Shown here: positions 16,071-63,997 of the stretch, in pieces
How the letters are laid out: every line of letters starts with the position of its first letter
Position numbering within the stretch: position 1 is the first letter of the stretch
DNA from: Amyloporia xantha
Lineage: Eukaryota > Basidiomycota > Agaricomycetes > Polyporales > Adustoporiaceae
Length of the DNA stretch: 64,000 bases
Direction of reading: 5' to 3'
NCBI GenBank assembly: GCA_036971615.1
Contig: JAYKKR010000003.1
Location: 2,480,001-2,544,000, forward strand
The notes under the pieces: generated by a model
What the model was told of the DNA's origin: nothing
Databases searched by the model: none
What the model saw: the letters and a program-made list of their open reading frames with translations, nothing else
Made by a program: the position numbers and the translations under genes

Positions 16071-17526
16071 GACAGCTGACACGAGTGGAGAGCGAATTCT
16101 GCCCCAAGATTGCAACGACCAGCGTACTGTGGGGATGTGGCGGGTGGTGGTGTAACGAGAGTAGCGATCTACGTTTGGCTAATGGTAGGATAGACGAGAA
16201 AACGAACCCCAGTCGTCGTGGGGTGGCAATTGAGACAGCAGTGCAGGCGCATCGCAGGTAATCAGAGTGAGAGACCTTGTCTCGTCCATCTTCACATACC
16301 TTCCTCGGTCGGATATTGTTGTGCATCTATCTGTTGCTAATAGCCACTCTGATATGAGACGTACTCATTCGGAAGTTCTCCTTACATAGAGGAGAAATAG
16401 GACGATAGAGATCCGAAGTAGGGGTGACCGAGGACAGATAGAAGACGAGAACGGGACGACTGTTGATCTTCATATGGGTGTTGGACACCTGAGGGAAATT
16501 CTCGATCCTGAATGGGAGAAGATGTATTGCCTTGAGTAACGGTAGCTATGTCGGGAGAGAGAATCAAATGGAAGCCATGACGATACGACATGCGTGAGAT
16601 TGATAGAGAACTTGGACTATCGCGCCCATGGCTTGCGATATTGTGCGACGGTAGACATGCGTACCGGAAATGGGGACGCGGATGCAGATGGAAGGACATT
16701 GGATGCGTTATCGTACGTAAGTACAGTGTAACAGGAATTGAGGACGGCGGGTCGAGCGAGGACTATCACAACATTTTGATCGACAGGTTTGACAGCTTGC
16801 GCCGAGCTAACAGCCTAAAGATGCGAGCTAACAGATCTCAGTTTGGCTGTGCAGTGATGTCAGAATATCCAATAAAGAGAAAACACAGTTCAAGGGTGTC
16901 TCCCCGTTGGAATGGGGGTAGTGGTACCCAAGTCGTGCCTATCAGTGTCATCTCACAACCGAGCTGTCGACGAGCTAGGAAAGTCGAGACCTTAAACGTC
17001 GCTCGCCGCGGTCATGCATGTCCTTGGCACATACGGTTATGTATCGCGTAGATGATGACCCTGCCGAAGGCAGAGCATCGGTGAATGGCTACTGACAGAT
17101 ATCCTTACATGTCTTATGTCGGGATGCCTGCAGAGCTATAGGTGCCTGGTCGCGATTGCCGACGACGGGGTCTCCCTCGGGTCGGCTGCTCGCGTAACTG
17201 AGCAGTTGGTCCTGGGCACGTACCTCGAAAAGGTCACTACACACAATGCCGGCGCTCTAGCGCAGCCACAAACCCTTTGGGAGCGTAGATATCTAACGAC
17301 TCACCTTGATGGATCCGATGGCCGGGTGGTGGATGATCGCAGACATTGACAGCAAGCTGCGGTTAGCCTGGTGGAGCAGTCACCAGAAACGTTTTTCATA
17401 ACGCAACTTTCAGGCGATGATAACTGCCCACCAGTATACCGAATGCGCTGTCACAGCCTGTAGCGGACTCGTGGTTTTGTCGTGGTGGTCTGAAGTTAAG
17501 AGTGAAACGCGAGGGGAGAGCTACTA
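16071..17526. other. Intergenic stretch
   Basis: No gene is supported. The longest frame (16590-17051, plus) has no recognisable motif or splice context and is likely chance. Confidence 0.4.
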
Positions 17527-53620: not shown

Positions 53621-54351
53621 GGTCTCTCGGTGAAGCGACTTGGCGTGGAGGGGTATTATACAACTGAGTGGATTAATTTCAGCGAGGTGGTTCGATATTT
53701 ACACGACCCATTACACGATTCGCAACGCCGAGCGTGGCTGGACAATGAGACTTACCATAGCAGGACAGGTAGATCTCCGAGTACAGTAACCGCTGTCGCC
53801 ACTGTTCGGTCCCTCTGCGACCTGATCCATCGTCTATTCCGGAATTACTCTTCAACCGTTTAGGCCACTGTTCAACGTTTGGCAAGCTTCTAAATGATAT
53901 GGAGTCTCTTGAGACCAGCTCACATCGCGAACCCGACGTTCAAGCACTTGCACTGCGACACTTGGCGCGTCCTGTTCGGTTCCTGGTTGTGATTGCTGTT
54001 TATCGATAGTCCTGAGCCGGTACTAGTGACTGTGGAACGCGAACCATCCGCCTATTGTCATCCATTTTTGATCAGTCACTGGCAACGGAGACTACATCCG
54101 CCTGGGACCGCCAGGGACCCATTGCCTGCCGACACCGAGGTCGCATCGTTTCCGGTGGCTCGGGCCATCATTGCTGTTTGAACGAGCCTAGCTTCAGTGC
54201 CGCTTCACCGTCCTGAGCGCATCGTGATAACTTGTCTGCATCTTCGTGGTCTCAAGAGAAGTATCGTGAACCGGGCGCCTGTTCACACCCGGTTCACGCG
54301 CGCGGGGCCTCAAGCGCCCGCGCAGACTTTGCCCGAAATCACAGTCGGTTC
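53621..54351. other. Intergenic stretch before the nested transposons
   Basis: No coding signal is supported. It holds the P450 promoter side and the flank of the hAT fragment. Confidence 0.45.
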
Positions 54352-54945: not shown

Positions 54946-57900
54946 GTCCCAAATGACCTGTCATTTGGTTATCAATTCATGTACGGTGTGCGGTGCTGAC
55001 AAATCAGCTCCACCCATTGGAACCTAAACGTTTTGCCGATCACGTGAATCTCATTCGTCTCGTGTTGTAGCTGCCACTGTGGAACACATCCTTTTTTTTC
55101 GACATTGTGTCTCTTCTGACCAAACGTGTCGGTGCTTCCACGCGTGCTGTAATTTTTTTTATCTATGTAACGTTTTTTGCTGTCATCGTTGTGGGGATAT
55201 TGCATGTGTATCACGTGTAATGTCACGTGCTTGCTATCGGTCACGCCGCTCATAGCTGTCTTGTCTCGTTGGATCGGCTCACGTGATTGGGATTTTTTTT
55301 TGGGCCGGACAGCCCCTTGTCGGACCCCGTCCCTTTTGTCGACTTGAGCCTACCTCGGGACTGCATCGCTTTTCTCGCCTTGAGCCTACCTCGCCTGTTT
55401 GCCTCCCGAGTTGAATCGATGGTTTGTGTTGTCGTGCCGTCACCGTTCATGGTGGTCGGTGTTATTTTGTGCGCGTGGGCGGTTCTGTGTGCCCGCGTTG
55501 ATGTTGTATGTCGCCCTGCGGTTCGTTTTGCGGGCAGACTAGAGGATGAGCACCGCCCGCCCTGTGCTGTAGTCCATGCCAGCGGTGGCGGTGATATGCG
55601 ATCCAATGTGTTTGATCACGCACTGTACGGACCATCTACCGTCGTGTACGCCCCCTCTGCGGAGTGCCTTCTCCCTCCGTTGTTATACTGTGGCTCCTAT
55701 GTCCGTCTTGGTGATGGGCCGTCTTCGTCTGTCGATGTGCGGCGGATTACCGTCGATGTGCCGCTATCTTTTCTTGCTCCTCGTTTACCGCTCCGTTCGC
55801 TTCAGGGTCTTGTACGCCTTCATCGTATTCAGCTTCCTCGTGCGTCCCGCAAAGCGCAGGATATGTCTGACGTTTTAGCCAGTCATGTGTGCAACTGGCG
55901 GTGCCCTACCTCTGTGTCTGAATTTATTTCGCTCGCTGAGAACAAGACTGCCGTACAGCAAAGCTCTCGCAGCGCCGTGTTCTCTTCTGCTTGGCTCAGT
56001 GGGCACCGGTTGATCTCGGGAATTCCTCCCCTGTCTCGGACCGACAGACTGTTTCGTTACGTTGCCTCTATGGATCTGTCTGCTTACGTTTTCTCGCCTG
56101 CAGACGTCGTCGTATTGGTCCCGGTCGCCGAGCTTGTCAATAAACTCCCCCTGACGTCTTTGTCGCAGCTCGCGTCTGTACATGGCGTACATGTGCCTGC
56201 GATACACCGAGGTACATCAGATTGTGCTCGCGTGTTGGGTTTGCATGATTGTCGTGCTAGTGGCTGTCTTAACCTCGTAAGCGTATTTCGCGCGGTATCA
56301 TCTGCGTCCCCTCCACGCGTCAGTGGGACTCCTCTTTCTGCAGATGTTGCAGATGGAGTTCACTTGTCGGAAGACGTTCATTCACCTGACCCTTTGCGAG
56401 CTCTGCCACCCGGTGTTCATCAGTTTCCTCCTGGCGTGGCAGACCGTGAACGTTTTCGCGATATCGTGCGGGACTGGTGTGCGGGATTTTCACCCGAGGA
56501 GTGCCATGAGCGTTCATGTGCAGTCTGTGCCCGTTTAGTTGTCTTGCGCGATTTGCGTCGGGAGCGGTGCGATTCACTTAACTTATATTTGTTGGTTCGT
56601 CATGCAGATGGTGTCACTCGCGCTGGGCGCCGCAATCTATCGGAGCCCGTTCGAGAACTTGACGGGCCGATTCTGTACGAACCCGCAATCCATGTTGTAG
56701 ACGGTGTTCGCTACGCGGATGTTTGTAAGACTTGCCATCAGGTGCTTTCTCGCCACAGTGTGCCTGCGGAGGCGCTTGCGAATGGATTGTGGATTGGCGA
56801 CGTCCCGCCTGAGCTGCAGGGGCTCTTGTTCGCAGAGAAGCTTGCTATCGCCCGGATGCGCCACAACGCCTTTGTGGTGAAGGTGAACAAAGGCCAGCGC
56901 AAGATGCGCGCGAACGCTGTCGTGTTTTCGCAACCGGTTCAGAAGGTATATGATACTTTACCCCCTCCTCGAGAGGAGCTCGATCTTTGTTTAGCAATTT
57001 TATTTACAGGTTCCTCTGTACCCACTGAGGAAGATTTGAAGAGGACCCCGTTGCTTGTCCGTCACAACGTCGTAATGCGTGCGCTTCGGTGGCTGAAGCT
57101 CAATCATCGAGAGTATGCGTCTGTCGAGATATCTGAAGAAAACATGCGCACGTATCCGGATTCCGCTCCTCCTGTGGCTATCATTCACCGCCGTACCGAC
57201 GGCTCCACCGAAGGCGAATCGCTTTCGGTCCATGATTTCGAGTCTGAGCACGGCACAGAGACAGGGATGTGCTCGTTTGCGATGCATGGTATGAATGGTG
57301 CTGAGCTGGTCGATATGACGTATCACGCTCGCGTCGCGCTCGCTTTGCGTCATTTTCACGAAGGGGGTAAAGTGTTGTCTGTGGGTCATGATTCTCAGCC
57401 GGAATCGATGTACCACAACCCGGCGTTGTACCCTTCCCTTTTCCCTTGGCTATTCCCCTACGGTCTAGGCGGTTTTGAGAATGAACGCATCTCTCGTCGC
57501 ATGGCCCGCAAGCAGCACGTTAGACATCTCCTTATGTATGCAGATCGCCGATTCCAGACCGATGAATATTTCGCGTTTCTTGTATTTAATCAGGAGCAGA
57601 TACGCTCCTCGTCGCGTGGTGGGTTCCTTCTCACTCAAAAACGTAATCTGAAACACGTTGTTGACCGTATCCTCAACGTAGATATGGATGCGTTGGAACG
57701 CCTGATCCGTCGCGGCCACGACGTCCTGTTCATTAAACCCGAAGACGAACAGGAAAAGCAGTGTTTTGAGCTTCTGTCGGCTATAGATCATGTTGCGGGC
57801 CATGTTGAAGGGTCGGCGACTTCTCGTAAGTACCAGAACAGTGAGATACGGTCACTCATCATCGCCGAGAATGTTCCCGTGTTTTTCATTACGTTTTCGC

Positions 57901-58173
57901 CCGTTGATTTCAAACATCCACTGTGTCTGTACTACTGTGGCTACAAGCAGGACGTTTCGCTCCCCCCCCCACAACCGATGACAGCGGTGCCCGGTTGCGT
58001 GCTATCGCGACCAATCCCGTGGCGTGTGCCCGGTTTTTTCACTTTATGGTTACGTCTTTCATTAAACATGTACTCCGTGCGGACTCTGACAAAATAGGGT
58101 TGTTCGGGCCTACGTCGACATATTATGGTACGGTTGAATCGCAAGGACGCTTGACTTTACACCTGCACCTGCT
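54946..58173 (+). mobile_element. 5' part of a Helitron, interrupted
   Basis: It begins with the same palindromic leader as the fragment at 37410 and carries a Rep-type reading frame from about 55287. The sequence is Helitron-like through the HUH motif (58160-58168) and then changes abruptly at about 58173 to unrelated sequence carrying palindrome arrays. The helicase half and the 3' hairpin/CTRR end are absent from the window. Either the Helitron was interrupted by the following element, with its remainder beyond 64000, or it is truncated. Confidence 0.75.
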
Positions 58174-58234
58174 ATTATATAGGGTTTTCGTAACTGGGTT
58201 GGGGTACACTTACCCCCCTTCTGGGTTTGGGTAG
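55287..58234 (+). pseudogene. Helitron Rep/helicase, N-terminal part, truncated
   Basis: This encodes the replication-initiator half of a Helitron transposase, which nicks and copies DNA by a rolling-circle-like mechanism. The main frame (55287 to about 57960) contains the Cys/His region VDGVRYADVCKTCHQVL and the conserved stretch ALYPSLFPWLFPYGLGGFEN. Also present are GGFLLTQKRNLKHVV and VFFITFSPVDFKHPLC. A run of nine or ten C at 57961-57970 shifts the frame; the continuation reads LRAIATNPVACARFFHFMVT and ESQGRLTLHLHLLL. The HLH here is the HUH metal-binding motif. Eighteen residues later the frame stops in unrelated sequence, so the catalytic Tyr region and the helicase are missing. The start codon is uncertain; other in-frame ATGs exist near 55420. 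Confidence 0.8.
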
Positions 58235-58300
58235 GTCCGATTAGGAGCGGGGAGGTACATTTACGTAGCGAAACCCTGTACAGTAGGGTAATATACCATA
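58174..58300. other. Left boundary of the palindrome-bearing element, G/T-rich
   Basis: Directly after the broken Rep frame the sequence becomes rich in short TAGGG, TTGGGG, TTTGGG and TAGGTC blocks. TAGGGTTTTCG (58178-58188) is mirrored in inverse by CGAAACCCTGTA (58268-58279). This could be the terminus of an inserted element or degenerate telomere-like sequence. It holds no gene. Confidence 0.4.
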
Positions 58301-58324
58301 AATACACGAGTTGAGAGAAAAGAA

Positions 58325-58727
58325 CGCGCTTCGGATAGAGCGTGCTGAAGCGCGAACGTAGTACTGAATGTACACACGTGAAGTATATGTACGAACGCGC
58401 ATCCGTTTTCTCGTGCGGATGCGCGTTCGAGGCACTCGAGTACTATACATATATACCCCGTCGAACGCGCATCCGCACGATCGAACGGAAGCGCGTTTTT
58501 TTGCCCATTTGGGGCAATATATTTAGGGATATATATGTGTGTAATTACTCCGTCGATCGCGCTTCCGTTCGCTCGTGCGGATGCGCGTTCGACGGAGATT
58601 ATGTGTGTAGCACCCGAGTGCGTCGAACGCGCATCCGCACGAGCGAACGGAAGCGCGATCTGCGCACTTGTGTAGACCACTAAAATACTCTCGATATCGC
58701 GCATCCGTTCGGACATGCGGATGCGCG
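58325..58727. repeat. Palindrome array A: six 30-bp palindromes
   Basis: Cores are 58325-58354, 58396-58425, 58466-58495, 58558-58587, 58628-58657 and 58698-58727. Each is exactly 30 bp: left arm CGCGCWTCSG, a 10-bp centre, right arm CKGAWGCGCG. Start-to-start distances are 71, 70, 92, 70 and 70 bp, and the intervening 40-62 bp are unrelated to each other. Copies 2, 4 and 6 carry the reverse-complement-type centre (TTCGCTCGTG-like), while 3 and 5 carry the forward type (CACGAGCGAA). The array lies about 130 bp upstream of the ATG of the ParB-like gene. The long open frames crossing it are artefacts of the repeats. Confidence 0.92.
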
Positions 58728-58855
58728 AAGAAGGCACGTGTGGGCGATGCATGTGACTGTGAGAGTCAAGTGATCGTATCGATCGACTGGGCGCTGGGAT
58801 GCGTTGGTCGTTCGATACGCCTCGACTTCACTTGTAACTGAGACGTACCTTTAAC

Positions 58856-60542
58856 ATGCCTCCGAAGAAAGCGACAACAACTGGAGGCCGCCGCCGAAGC
58901 AACCAGATCCTCCTGAGGTGGAGGAGCTCGATAGCAGCTCTGGAGAAGGAGGAGGAGGAGGAGAAGGTGAGTAGCATATACCTATGAGAGTGTGCATGGA
59001 TAACACTGTGGACAGTGCCGGCTGTAACACAGCTGAGTCGGCCGATCACGCTGCGCGGTCAGCGTGCTGGGGTGCCGCAGGGGTATGCGCCGCCACGTCG
59101 GCAGTCGAAGCCTGCTGCGCCGCCTGTGAAGCAGGCGACGATCGCTGGGCCGTCGAAAGTCGGTGCAGTCATCGACGAGGACGAGGACGAGGATGATGTG
59201 GTGGAGGAGGAGGAGGTTGTTCCTGTGGCGAAGGGGAAGAAGAAAGGTAAGGCGAAGGCGAAAGGTAAGGCGAAGGGGAAGGGGAAGGGGAAGGAGAAGG
59301 CGCAGGAGGTGAGCGACGGGGACGGGGAGAGTGGGGAGGGGACGGGGAGGAGGAGGCCGCGGAGGAGGAAGACGAGCAGACGAAGGCGGAAAGGGAAGCG
59401 GAGAGATCGGAGGTACGTAAGATTAACATGATCGGGCTGGATGTGATATTGACGTTCGATCGCACGGGGATCTAGAATGCGTTGCGGAAGATGACGACCG
59501 CGATCGGGCTGACGGACGACTCGAAGGAACGGGGAGGAGGTGGCGAAGCTGGAGGCGAAGATTTCGGAGGCGCTGTACGGGCATGTGCGGGTGCCGTTGC
59601 TGGACTTCCTCGCGAAGGAGTTGGGGATGGTGTTCGTTCCGCACCAGTGGAACGATCGGCCGATCAACAAGATGGAGGCGACTCGGCTGCTGGCGGAGTT
59701 GAACGTCGAGCACGGTGGGCTGCTAGCGGGGAACATGATCCAGATTGCGATCTCGGAGAAGTTCCTGGACGATACGCTGACGCCTCGGGAGCTGCAGCGC
59801 CGGGCCGGACACCTTCTACCGGAGCTGAAGATCGATCCCAGTGCGCGGGCGGAGCTGGAGGACGGTACGTTGGCGCCGGCGGAGGTGTACATCATCGGTG
59901 GGCACCACCGGAGGGAGGCGAACGCGATGTACTGCAAGCGTTTGCTGGACTCGTACGTGAAGGCGGAGGCGGAGATGGAGTTGCTGAGAGCGAAGACGGC
60001 GCGGACGGAGGTGGAGAACGATATGCTGACGAAGTTGGTGGAGATGTACGAGAAGGCTCGGGCACGTCTCGAGGAGAAGGCGATGTGGTCGGCGGAGGTG
60101 TACGTCTACGGTGAGTGTGCGATTGAATTATTATTATTGGATGTTTTTATTAATACGCATTACAGAGAAGTTGAGTACGGAGATGGGGTTGCATCTGTCT
60201 CGGAACCGAGAGATGCATCGGTTCTACGAGACGGAGGACGAGTATTTCCTGATGACGCTGCGTGCGTTGCGGGAGCTGGACCGCGTCCCGGGGAAGTTCG
60301 ATGCGAGGCTCGCGAAGGAGCTGAACGATGTGCGGTCGCGCACGGGGAATCGCGTCGGAAGCACGCGAATCACTTCGCGAAGCTGTGGGCGCACCCGCGG
60401 GCGGTGAGGTTCCTGATGTCTCTTACGAGATACGGGCGGGATTTCCTGCAATCGCCGTACCTGCGGATCGAGAAGGTGACGACGATGTTCAAGACGCACT
60501 TCGGGGTGAGTATGTGTGCTTACGATGGAGAGACATATGTTG

Positions 60543-60578
<36 letters not shown>

Positions 60579-63500
60579 CAGCTGTTCGTGTTCCTGGGGC
60601 AGCAGTCGTCGGACATCATGGGCTTGCTGGGGTCGAAGGAGGTGCACTCTGAGATGAAGACTGTGGCGGATGTCTCGAAGCTCCAGCGGAAGTTGATGGA
60701 GGACTTCGAGGACCTGGAGAAGCAGTACCGGGACGAGGACCTGCATGCGAGGATGACGCGACTGAGCAAGCGACTGTCGTGGATAGGGTACCACGAGGAG
60801 CGTATGCTGATGATGCGTGGTACGCCTGATTGGGAGGTTTGGCAGGACGACGCGGTGATGGTTCTTGCTGACGGTGCGTTCCGTGCTGCTGTGCGGACGG
60901 AGGACTGGAAGCTGGGGAAGACGACGGAGGCGTCGCGGAAGCAGCTGGAGGACATCAGCGTGCAGCTGATGGACAGTCTGGAGGGGCATTGGCAGCGGAA
61001 CCCGGCGGCGAACGAGGAGGAGAAGGCGTTCCGGCAGGTGGTGCTAGCGCGGATCAAGATGCTGTACACGCCGCTGCCTGCGGAGATGTACGAGTACGAC
61101 CTGTTCATACCTCCTCCCCCGCTGTCCCGTGCGTATCTGGCGTCGCTGGATAGCGAGCTGCAGCTGTACTCGTCGGGATGGTCTGTGGTGAGTGAATATT
61201 TTATACTCTGTTCCAATATGTCCGATAACGCGCATCCGCCCGAGCGAACGGATGCGCGATATCGGGACATATTTTTGTGTATGCGTGACGAGAGGTGCGT
61301 CTGACGCGCTTCAGCACGGTCGAACGGAAGCGCGTCAAACGCACCTCGATTGAATGCGCACAAGGTGCGTATATCGCGCATCCGCTCGCTCGGGCGGATG
61401 CGCGTCATACGAGTGCGATGACGACACACGTGCGTGTGCATGAACGTCGAATGACGCGCATCCGCCCGAGCGAGCGGAAGCGCGATATCGACGTCTATCG
61501 GACGACGTACCTGATGACCTCCGTTTTCGCGCATCGGCCAGCGCGAACGGAAGCGCGATCTGACGACGCTATGGGTATGCTGACGGGCGTTCTTTTTTAC
61601 AGATCGCATGGTTCATCGAACCGTTCGCACTGTGCACGTCGATGACGAACTCGACCGAGTTCATCGCCGACCACTGGCTGACGGTGTTCAACACGATCGA
61701 GCAATGGCCGGGGATCATGCCGGGGCAGGTGGAGAAGACGTGCGCCAGGCTGGCCAGGCTGGTGTGGAGCACGCGAGACGAAGCGGCGTCGTTCCTGGAC
61801 GTGCACTGGAGACTGATGCCGGAGTCGGCGGGTGGAGCCGTTCGAACACGAAGAAAGAGCTCGGGACCGGCATGTTCGCGATGTTCTGGTCGAGTGGGTG
61901 GAAGAAGACGCGCGTCAGGGAGCCGTCGGCGGAAGAAGTGGAGAGTGCGAAGGAGTACCTCAAGTACATCGACTTCGACAAGGTGATGGCGCCGAGGTCG
62001 CTCGTGCAGACCGTGTCGGCGTTGATAGATGCGCGGAACGAGTTCGTCGCTCGGGAGGACCACAAGAAGGTCGAGCGTCTGTTCGGGTGGCGAGCGTTGT
62101 GGTTCTCGGGCATGCCGTGGAGGGCGAGCTGGCGGAGGAACCGAAGACGGGCAGGAAGGGCTGGACGTGCCTCAAGAACCTCCGGCGGGACATCTCGTCG
62201 ATGGCGGTGGTGACGGCTCTGGAGATGAGCCACTTCCGTGCGTTCATGTTCGACTCGACGCCTCCGGTCATCCTGGATCTGCGGGATGACATCGCCAAGA
62301 TCATGTCGGAGGGTATGGACTCGTCTGCGGAGGTCAAGTTCGAGTGGTGGGATGAGTGCGATCTCACGAAGCAGACGAAGGAGGTGTCGAATCCGACGTG
62401 GGTCGAGTCCGAAACGCGGGAGGCCAATCCGCAGCGCAAGAAACAGATGGACGTGGTGGATCAGGAGAAGAAGAGGAGGTTGGAGAAGGCGGCAGGGACG
62501 GCGACGGCGGAGAGCACGAGTCGTGCGTCCGGTGGAACGACTCAGGCGAAGGCCGGGGCCAAAGCGAAAGATGAGCGGAAGGCGGAGGCTTCTGGGTCGG
62601 CGTCGAAAGCAGCGAAGCCAGTCAGGAAGAGCCGGGGCAAGGGCAAGGCCGCTGAGACCGTCAAGGACCTTTCGGCGTTGGAGATCTCGGATCAGGCGGA
62701 CCACGACTTGGAGGAGGCGAAGCGTCTCATCACGCTGATCGCGAACCTCCCGTCGGTTCGGCTGGTCACGCAGGATAACGTGGACGAGGATCCAACGACG
62801 CGTCCGCTGGACGGACTGGTCGCGTTCACGATGCGCCAGATGCACAAGGTGAGCGATCGTGTCTCTCTCTCTCTCTCGCGCGCGCGTACTTAACTTTGAC
62901 GTACTCATCATTATAATGTGTTCGCAGGCGATCGTCAGTACCGTGGCGCACAATCGCGAGCGTCAAGTTACCGAGAACTGGACGGAGCGGCTCGATGCCT
63001 CCGTTCTGCTCAAGACGTATGACGCGAATTCGCTGCAGCTGCCCAATGCGCAATACTCGGATCGCTTTGAATATCCTTGGGTGCGTTTGAGCGTGCGAGA
63101 GAGACGGATACCGACATCTGACCTATTATTTTTATATGTGTTCGCAGGACGTACCTACTGAGACCGACCTGAAGGAGCTGATGGACCTCGAGGAGTCCCA
63201 CATCCAGGCGCTGCAACAGGAGGAGGAGGAGAAGAAACGGGCGAGGCGGGCTGCCAAGAAGAAGGCCATGGCAGAGATCGCTGCTGCACCTGAAGGTGCT
63301 GGTGAGCCGGAGCTGACGCAGGAGCAGAACGACGATGAGGAGGAAGAGCAAGAGCCAGAGCCAGAGGAGGGTGGGGATGATGAACCGGAGGCCCCGGGTG
63401 AGCAAGGCGAAGGAGGCGGAGATGGACAGGGGGAGAGTGGGCCTGCGGGCAAGAAGCGCAGCAACTCGAACGTCTCCAAGAATTCGAAAAAGGCGACGAC

Positions 63501-63738
63501 ACCCTCTCCGGATAAGAAGCGTCCGCGCCGTGGAGAGACCCCTGAGCGCAACGAGGAGGAGGAGGAGGATGAGGAGGATGCGGAGATGGGGGACGACACG
63601 GGGAAGGGCAAGACGACCTCTGAGCCCGGCGTGTCTGCGCACCAGGAGCAGCAGGACATCCAGGGTGACGTGCTCTTCGCACCCGGTCAGCCTGATGACG
63701 ACGACCAAGAGATGGACGACAACTTCATCGGTGAGTAA
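58856..63738 (+). CDS. ParB/Srx-like domain protein of the palindrome-bearing element (frames interrupted)
   Basis: I do not recognise the whole protein. It starts MPPKKATTTGGRRR, then acidic and Lys-rich low complexity (KGKAKAKGKAKGKGK). Next is a domain with RPINKMEATRLLAELNVEHG and VYIIGGHHRREANAMYCK (59885-59937). The latter resembles the ParB/sulfiredoxin-fold pattern, an N-terminal 'LA..I...G' segment followed by G-x-H/R-R-x-x-A. Helical regions follow (LFVFLGQQSSDIMGLLGSKE, WKLGKTTEASRKQLEDIS, KYIDFDKVMAPRSLVQTVS, SSMAVVTALEMSHFRAFM). The C-terminus is highly charged (QEQNDDEEEEQEPEPEEG). Introns are clear at about 58967, 60116, 60510, 61189, 62850 and 63083. Joining all coding stretches needs about four +1 shifts (near 59545, 60347, 61834, 62115), at least three at G runs. 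The final FIG|GTGAGT could be a splice donor, so the gene may continue beyond the window. Confidence 0.55.
60547..60576. repeat. (AT)n microsatellite in an intron
   Basis: An uninterrupted AT run of about 15 units lies just before the acceptor TTGCAG of an intron in the ParB-like gene. Confidence 0.9.
61229..61557. repeat. Palindrome array B: five 30-bp palindromes inside an intron
   Basis: Cores are 61229-61258, 61305-61334, 61375-61404, 61455-61484 and 61528-61557, spaced 76, 70, 80 and 73 bp. They have the same 10-10-10 build as array A. They fill the intron between exon end GTCTGTG|GTGAGT (61189) and acceptor TTTTACAG (61601). That intron is about 410 nt in a gene whose other introns are mostly 50-80 nt. 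The third copy has a reverse-type centre (CTCGCTCGGG); the others are forward type. Confidence 0.92.
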
Positions 63739-63765
63739 GCATGTTCGCCTCTGTGTGTCTCGTTT

Positions 63766-63997
63766 CGCGCTTCGGCCAGAGCGAACGGAAGCGCGAACGA
63801 GACATATATATATATCGTATTGATGCGTCGAACGCGCATCCGCACGGACGAACGGAAGCGCGATCCACGCACCTCGAGAGTGTGCTCAGACACTCCATCG
63901 AACGCGCATCCGCACGAGCGTACGGAAGCGCGTCACGCGGGGGTACATGAAAATACTACCCGTACGACGCGCATCCGCCCGAGCGAACGGAAGCGCG
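63766..63997. repeat. Palindrome array C: four 30-bp palindromes running off the window
   Basis: Cores are 63766-63795, 63833-63862, 63903-63932 and 63968-63997, spaced 67, 70 and 65 bp, all with forward-type centres (such as CCCGAGCGAA). The array starts about 30 bp after a perfect donor-like GTGAGTAAG, so it may also lie in an intron. It probably continues past 64000. Confidence 0.92.

Follow-up and report, generated by a model that had tools for sequence, protein, structure and literature searches.

Palindrome arrays of Amyloporia xantha are part of an uncharacterised, probably mobile element at chromosome ends

We analysed a 64,000-nucleotide stretch of A. xantha DNA (the window; contig C23, positions 2480001-2544000) and conclude that its palindromes form part of an uncharacterised, apparently mobile element at chromosome ends. 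Genome-wide statements refer to a single genome, one assembly of 46.8 Mb, in which C-numbers denote contigs and L-numbers extracted loci. The element, family A, has a fixed left end that occurs on different flanks; most copies point outward, and some carry telomere caps or remnants. The palindrome co-diverges with the element family, and its arms vary less than the spacers. We give an even chance to the proposal that a mobile element joined to chromosome ends encodes its own dyad-binding protein with a VANC-like anti-silencing role.

Palindrome arrays and genes of the window

The sequence-only reading described fifteen palindromes (6 + 5 + 4) with exact cores. With up to three mismatches allowed, 15 sites are present at the expected positions, compared with a mean of 0.01 and a maximum of 1 in 100 shuffles, which upholds their places and number. 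The arm pattern is exact in 11 of the 15 sites, but there are two arm mismatches at site 58325 and one each at 61305, 61528 and 63766. Within arrays, the start-to-start spacing was re-measured and covers the same range as reported, 65-92 bp. Array 1 (58325..58727) consists of six palindromes upstream of gene 1 and was aligned over 19 copies, and array 2 (61229..61557) places five in an inferred intron. Array 3 (63766..63997, continuing to L005:196) lies downstream of gene 1 or in its last intron; four of its sites are indeed within the window, but the real array has seven, the others being at L005:33, 99 and 167 (C23:2544033, 2544099 and 2544167). Two more arrays are located downstream, inside a second gene. 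The arrays of family A occupy non-coding parts of a two-gene repeat: upstream, inferred intron and downstream.

Genome-wide, the family A pattern CGCGCWTCCG-N10-CGGAWGCGCG has 195 exact sites and the reversed control pattern none. Among the approximately 50 of these 195 sites that were listed, and in the extracted copies, the arrays accompany the same gene, and lone scattered sites without the gene were not found. The sites form arrays inside one repeated element, in agreement with the earlier view that they are neither a microsatellite nor a dispersed MITE, for which single scattered copies with a target duplication would be expected. The binding-site-like character that it assigned to the arrays was also right. 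While it recognised the linkage to a gene, it missed the chromosome-end element, the left end and the related palindromes. The spacers, described as unrelated, are unrelated to one another, but the two flanks of a single family A palindrome are often partly complementary; for the 24 sites of the copy on C34, none of 2000 permutations was as good.

Gene 1 (58857..63739, plus strand) is an inferred multi-exon open reading frame (ORF) with GT-AG introns, supported by the ORFs and by constraint in one exon. All introns discussed here were inferred from GT-AG borders and reading frame, including the phase 0 intron that houses array 2 (GTGAGT...ACAG; 61188..61602, plus strand). Compared with the C34 copy, gene 1 of the window is seemingly frameshifted near 59330 and 61830, and the C34 copy carries one frameshift of its own. 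On its plus strand, the latter copy carries two large sets of ORFs, and its 24 sites (at most three mismatches) are distributed with six upstream of gene 1, five in a gene-1 intron, seven after gene 1, and four and two in two gaps between gene-2 exons. The gene-1 exon shows seven synonymous and no nonsynonymous differences between window and C34, six and none between C34 and C5, and one of each between window and C12. The motif GGHHRREAN (59897..59923, plus strand) lies in a region shared by seven aligned gene-1 paralogues, in which GG[HQ]HR..A and N.R are invariant.

Gene 1 matches no Pfam family. The tested parts of gene 1 and gene 2 likewise give no Pfam match, and no DNA-binding domain was recognised in them. 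A search of a 5.8-billion protein set with spliced gene 1 gave no homologue at E≤1 among 7992 candidates scored, and none of 111 pattern stretches in viral contigs was confirmed as a relative. Pfam, PDB sequence profile and Foldseek searches returned no usable match. Of 209 RVT_1 (reverse transcriptase) candidates, 150 were scored, and none of these 150 is inside the A and B copies examined; the RVT_1 match at C12:4118244 is outside, beyond the C12 element copy. No polymerase or transposase was found in the element, and the case for its mobility is therefore built on copy structure.

Left end, flanks and position at chromosome ends

The left terminus of family A (58174..58324, plus strand) is G/T-rich, begins with ATTATATAGGGTTTTCGTAACTGGGTTGGGG and was delimited from copy boundaries. 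A BLAST comparison of the region from 54001 onwards with eight other array-bearing places revealed 12 further copies, all of which start matching at window positions 58170-58174 even though the query began at 54001. With one locus that occurred twice among 32 counted a single time, the 31 family A copies with an examined left flank have 29 different flanks, and telomere repeats are present at the left-flank junction in none of the 31. Shared flanks occur in the C34 tandem pair and in the pair C12 (L014:5619) and C19 (L033:1290), where they are 93% alike up to the junction; the latter two copies may thus derive from one attachment event and have been copied later. On the far side, a flank is missing in family A copies. 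A 156-base left-end query has 41 matches in the genome, 40 of them from the first base, which is no proof of a sharp end since the query itself begins there; the sharp left end follows from the copy boundaries obtained with the query from 54001 and from the flank comparison.

The flank in the window falls within the middle of a Helitron gene (DUF6570, Helitron_like_N; 55287..58173, plus strand), which lies outside the element and is the interrupted attachment target. Pfam assigns PF20209 (2.3e-42) and PF14214 (2.4e-12) to ORF 55287-58097, and the overlapping ORF 57923-58234 continues to an HLH-type stretch, presumably Helitron Rep, that is cut at the element start. Helitrons have an internal Rep/helicase and 5'-TC...CTRR-3' ends. 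We rejected a Helitron as the identity of the element itself: the Helitron domains are upstream of the left end, and the terminus is ATTATATAGGG.

The longest compared copies of family A extend over at least 16.1-16.3 kb. At about 2.0 Mb on C34, three units of 16,275 bp stand in tandem; in this contig interior (C34:1998393-2031092), three inward-pointing left ends follow one another head to tail, approximately 16.27 kb apart, with identical sequence at both observed junctions. A right end at position 16,275 of the C34 unit was considered and rejected: the C23 copy continues past it, collinear with interior sequence on C59. In the C23 copy, about 6 kb of extra DNA (C23:2544343-2550512, L005) contains ORFs with repeated KKRHEI-like peptides and is absent from C5 and C34.

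The end of contig C23 is 31.6 kb to the right of the window. Of the 41 left-end matches, 36 are at most 100 kb from the nearer contig end and 37 are oriented outward, with a median distance of 21 kb from the contig end. The four inward-pointing matches are the C34 units and one C42 copy, and the five located deeper than 100 kb inside a contig are on C13, C10 and in the C34 units. Copies of the related family B are oriented outward in six cases and inward in two out of eight. The telomere repeat is TTAGG, rarely TTAGGG, as seen at the contig ends of C5, C9, C11, C1, C17 and C44.

Two contigs pass directly from a family A copy into the telomere, C9 approximately 610 bp and C17 approximately 160 bp into the copy. 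Four truncations carry 2-3 telomere units and then another repeat: C11 (position 3484), C19 (365), C7 (288) and C5 (1198). On C11 and C12, a new left end comes immediately after a truncated copy, and direct head-to-tail joins are present on C11, C12 and C34. Further truncations lead into unrelated sequence without telomere repeats, on C1, C5 (position 73), C6, C10, C12 (twice), C32 (twice) and C44 (three times). Telomere caps or remnants are thus seen on six of the truncations, not on all. The copy structure fits end attachment, erosion and healing.

Other sequences at these junctions also recur. The truncated copies on C10 (L021, family A position 878) and C12 (L014:6079) are both followed by the same foreign sequence, GATAGGCGCCAAGCCCCTCTGGGCCC. 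Another repeat, with the fixed start TGGTGGAGCGACGAAGCGAC, was observed at L034:452, L033:916, L013:3447, L017:5958, L020:7932, L021:4117, L023:6840 and L023:259; it is preceded by 2-4 telomere units in 8 of 11 occurrences examined and has the appearance of a distinct element attached to telomeres. At L012:1638 and L033:376, telomere units are followed by yet another fixed start, TTATGAGRCC...CTAGG.

Related families and the role of the palindromes

Family B is located on C23 beyond family A and has its own arrays of GGAATAGCG-N8-CGCTATTCC, spaced for example by 52-53, 61 or 74 bp, upstream of a gene-1 paralogue and within inferred introns. The gene-1 paralogue is 26% identical to that of A in the compared exon, and the gene-2 paralogue, which has a non-coding gap containing two sites, 43% over 105 residues. 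The left end of family B, ATTATAGGGAGTTTTTCTAAATGGGTTGGGG, resembles the family A terminus and is sharp: with a query that crossed the end, seven of seven further copies reach query positions 769-774. Exact patterns of B (GGAATAGCG-TCCYRGGA-CGCTATTCC), B' (GGAATATCG-N8-CGATATTCC) and C (GCGGCATY-N14-RATGCCGC) occur at 49, 41 and 62 sites genome-wide, respectively, and each reversed control at none. By inspection, each of the 49 exact B sites is found no more than about 17 kb from a B left end, on its outward side.

The palindromes of B and B' differ by one base pair, at the same position on both arms. Gene 1 of B' is 67% identical to that of B in the compared exon, and beside this value the figure for family C, represented by nine sites in four extracted loci (two of them near-identical copies), is about 30%. 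In the gene-1 exon, dN/dS is 0.28 for B versus B' and 0.41 for C57 versus C6, with the other two C pairs saturated. Because exact patterns force a split between B and B', we rechecked the sites with up to two mismatches. On C23, 22 of 26 B sites are exact, three have another single mismatch and one has a single B'-type arm; in L021, seven of nine B' sites are exact and two have another arm mismatch. No site among the 26 and the 9 is wholly of the other type. Each related family has a different palindrome, which therefore co-diverges with the element, as though every family tagged its DNA for recognition by a protein of its own.

Sequence diversity in array 1 was determined in two groups of 11 and 6 copies, from the 19 aligned with C19 and C44 left out. 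Arm diversity is 0.028 and 0.012 in the two groups, compared with 0.057 and 0.050 in the spacers; the palindrome centres, at 0.099 and 0.068, are above the arms. The palindrome-free terminal 151 bp (0.034 and 0.024) shows roughly the same conservation as the arms, and low arm diversity by itself is thus modest evidence. The stronger argument is family specificity: the arm sequence, beyond its capacity to pair, is constant within a family and altered between families, as is characteristic of dyad sites recognised by a cognate protein.

Functionless arrays, grown by unequal recombination and gene conversion, would account for the exchange of array members between copies and for the different introns that house the A and B arrays. 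They would leave unexplained why arms are less variable than spacers in both copy groups, and why several families share a similar layout with different sequence, and we consider such an origin quite improbable. We regard it as very improbable that the sites serve a host factor, such as a telomere or transcription regulator; their location at chromosome ends would suit one, but four palindrome types in one genome track the element family. The inverted repeats might also act as hairpins, formed by RNA in transcripts or by single-stranded DNA in replication intermediates, given that the family A flanks pair as described above and the folds are stable. A protein dyad would not account for this complementarity, which counts against the dyad reading but is not significant in B (590/2000 permutations) or B' (126/2000), nor in C, where three sites a locus are too few. 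Moreover, the arms keep a single sequence within a family rather than pairing alone, and arrays are also present upstream of the gene. A hairpin function therefore seems improbable.

In some DNA transposons, subterminal repeats are assembly sites for the mobility machinery. Assembly or replication sites of this kind for the element's own machinery, rather than sites for anti-silencing, would be expected to show the same co-divergence with the element family, and the first palindrome begins 152 bp from the fixed end. However, sites are spread over the whole element: they reach as far as 11 kb from that end and also occupy introns or gaps in gene 1 and gene 2. We judge this role unlikely.

We favour the proposal of a self-encoded dyad-binding protein. 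Family A would be a large mobile element whose one defined end connects it to broken chromosome ends, where it remains as terminal DNA, with its two genes running telomere-ward. Copies would erode from the telomere side, telomere repeats would heal some of them, and more elements would be added afterwards. The palindromes would be dyad-symmetric sites, specific to each family, that are bound by a protein encoded in the element, with the gene 1 product as the favoured candidate; gene 2 also follows the families, and the choice of gene 1 is thus a guess. Such a protein would recognise the element's own non-coding DNA, most likely preventing silencing, like VANC for VANDAL. The binding itself, the identity of the binder, the anti-silencing role and the manner of end joining are what we infer from this arrangement. 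We speculate further, at somewhat less than an even chance, that the families form an undescribed class of eukaryotic mobile element with enzymes of unknown type and one functional end, which caps broken chromosome ends and has diversified its own protein/palindrome code to at least four specificities in one genome.

If this is true, chromosome ends harbour a mobile element that lacks any recognised polymerase or transposase, and the families A, B, B' and C constitute a natural series in which genes are paired with dyad sites. The series would offer a way to study how selfish DNA discriminates itself from host and relatives. It would make the VANC-like idea testable outside plants, with the step from B to B' amounting to one base pair on both arms.

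Comparison with known systems

CRISPR arrays are composed of identical direct repeats and unique spacers, with cas genes nearby. The superficial likeness noted in the sequence-only reading is rejected: the repeats here are varying palindromes, in both orientations, within a gene that has inferred introns.

The same reading drew a parallel with parS, which we could not establish. The gene-1 motif GG[HQ]HR..A is reminiscent of ParB/sulfiredoxin, and a gene 1 product that spreads from the palindromes and clusters or partitions chromosome ends would be consistent with dyad sites arranged in arrays and with the residues invariant in the seven paralogues. The likeness consists of palindromic sites and a weak motif resemblance and is supported by neither profile nor fold. 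Neither the genome, searched at E≤10, nor the exon proteins match PF02195, whereas 11 of 14 control genomes do, and Pfam gives no match to gene 1. The predicted folds of gene 1 are of low confidence (mean pLDDT 52 and 51); with these models, none of 88 Foldseek matches reaches E≤0.001, and neither ParB nor Srx is among the best 50 of the 88. ParB membership is not supported, and we hold a ParB/parS-like function to be a slim prospect.

Subtelomeric RecQ helicase gene families of fungi are also multicopy at many chromosome ends, according to part of the published account (PMC7473861). They differ from the present element, in which the tested gene-1 and gene-2 pieces contain no helicase domain and there is a sharp, defined end. 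MoTeR and FoTeR elements likewise reside at fungal chromosome ends and leave relics with telomere remnants, as parts of two accounts state (PMC8381367, PMC12857005). From what these portions describe, they are non-LTR retrotransposons inside telomere repeats, whereas no reverse transcriptase was found in the family A copies examined and their left flanks are non-telomeric. The absence of a described fungal system of this form, as first suggested, is consistent with a limited literature search: the titles and beginnings of abstracts listed, and the part of PMC9674265 consulted, contain no fungal element of this form.

Among elements at chromosome ends, Terminons and EN-deficient Penelope-like elements, including the Coprina branch, serve as a comparison. 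Terminons, as portrayed in part of their description (PMC6431247), are likewise large, multi-ORF and at chromosome ends, with one-sided truncation, head-to-tail arrays and telomere repeats at truncations. Family A shows the same end attachment with one-sided truncation, apart from the inward and interior exceptions. It is unlike Terminons in its non-telomeric left flank and its telomere-ward genes, and no reverse transcriptase ORF was found in the A and B copies examined among the 150 RVT_1 matches scored from 209 candidates.

VANC21 binds motif arrays in introns and in intergenic and terminal non-coding DNA, and the motifs of VANC6 differ, according to part of the published work (PMC5735166). 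VANDAL elements thus resemble family A in having element-specific motif arrays in the same non-coding places (parts of PMC5735166 and PMC10398659), and family-specific motif arrays are what we find in the non-coding parts of the element. The same partial accounts describe, for related families, different motifs with diverged proteins, and array turnover. They also describe VANC motifs as 8-9 bp long, in one orientation and non-palindromic, in transposons with a VANA transposase, unlike the elements here. Neither a VANC domain (DUF1985, DUF287) nor a MULE transposase was matched by Pfam in the tested gene-1 and gene-2 pieces. VANDAL/VANC is accordingly an analogue of family A rather than the class to which it belongs, and as a putative functional parallel, VANC is the nearest.
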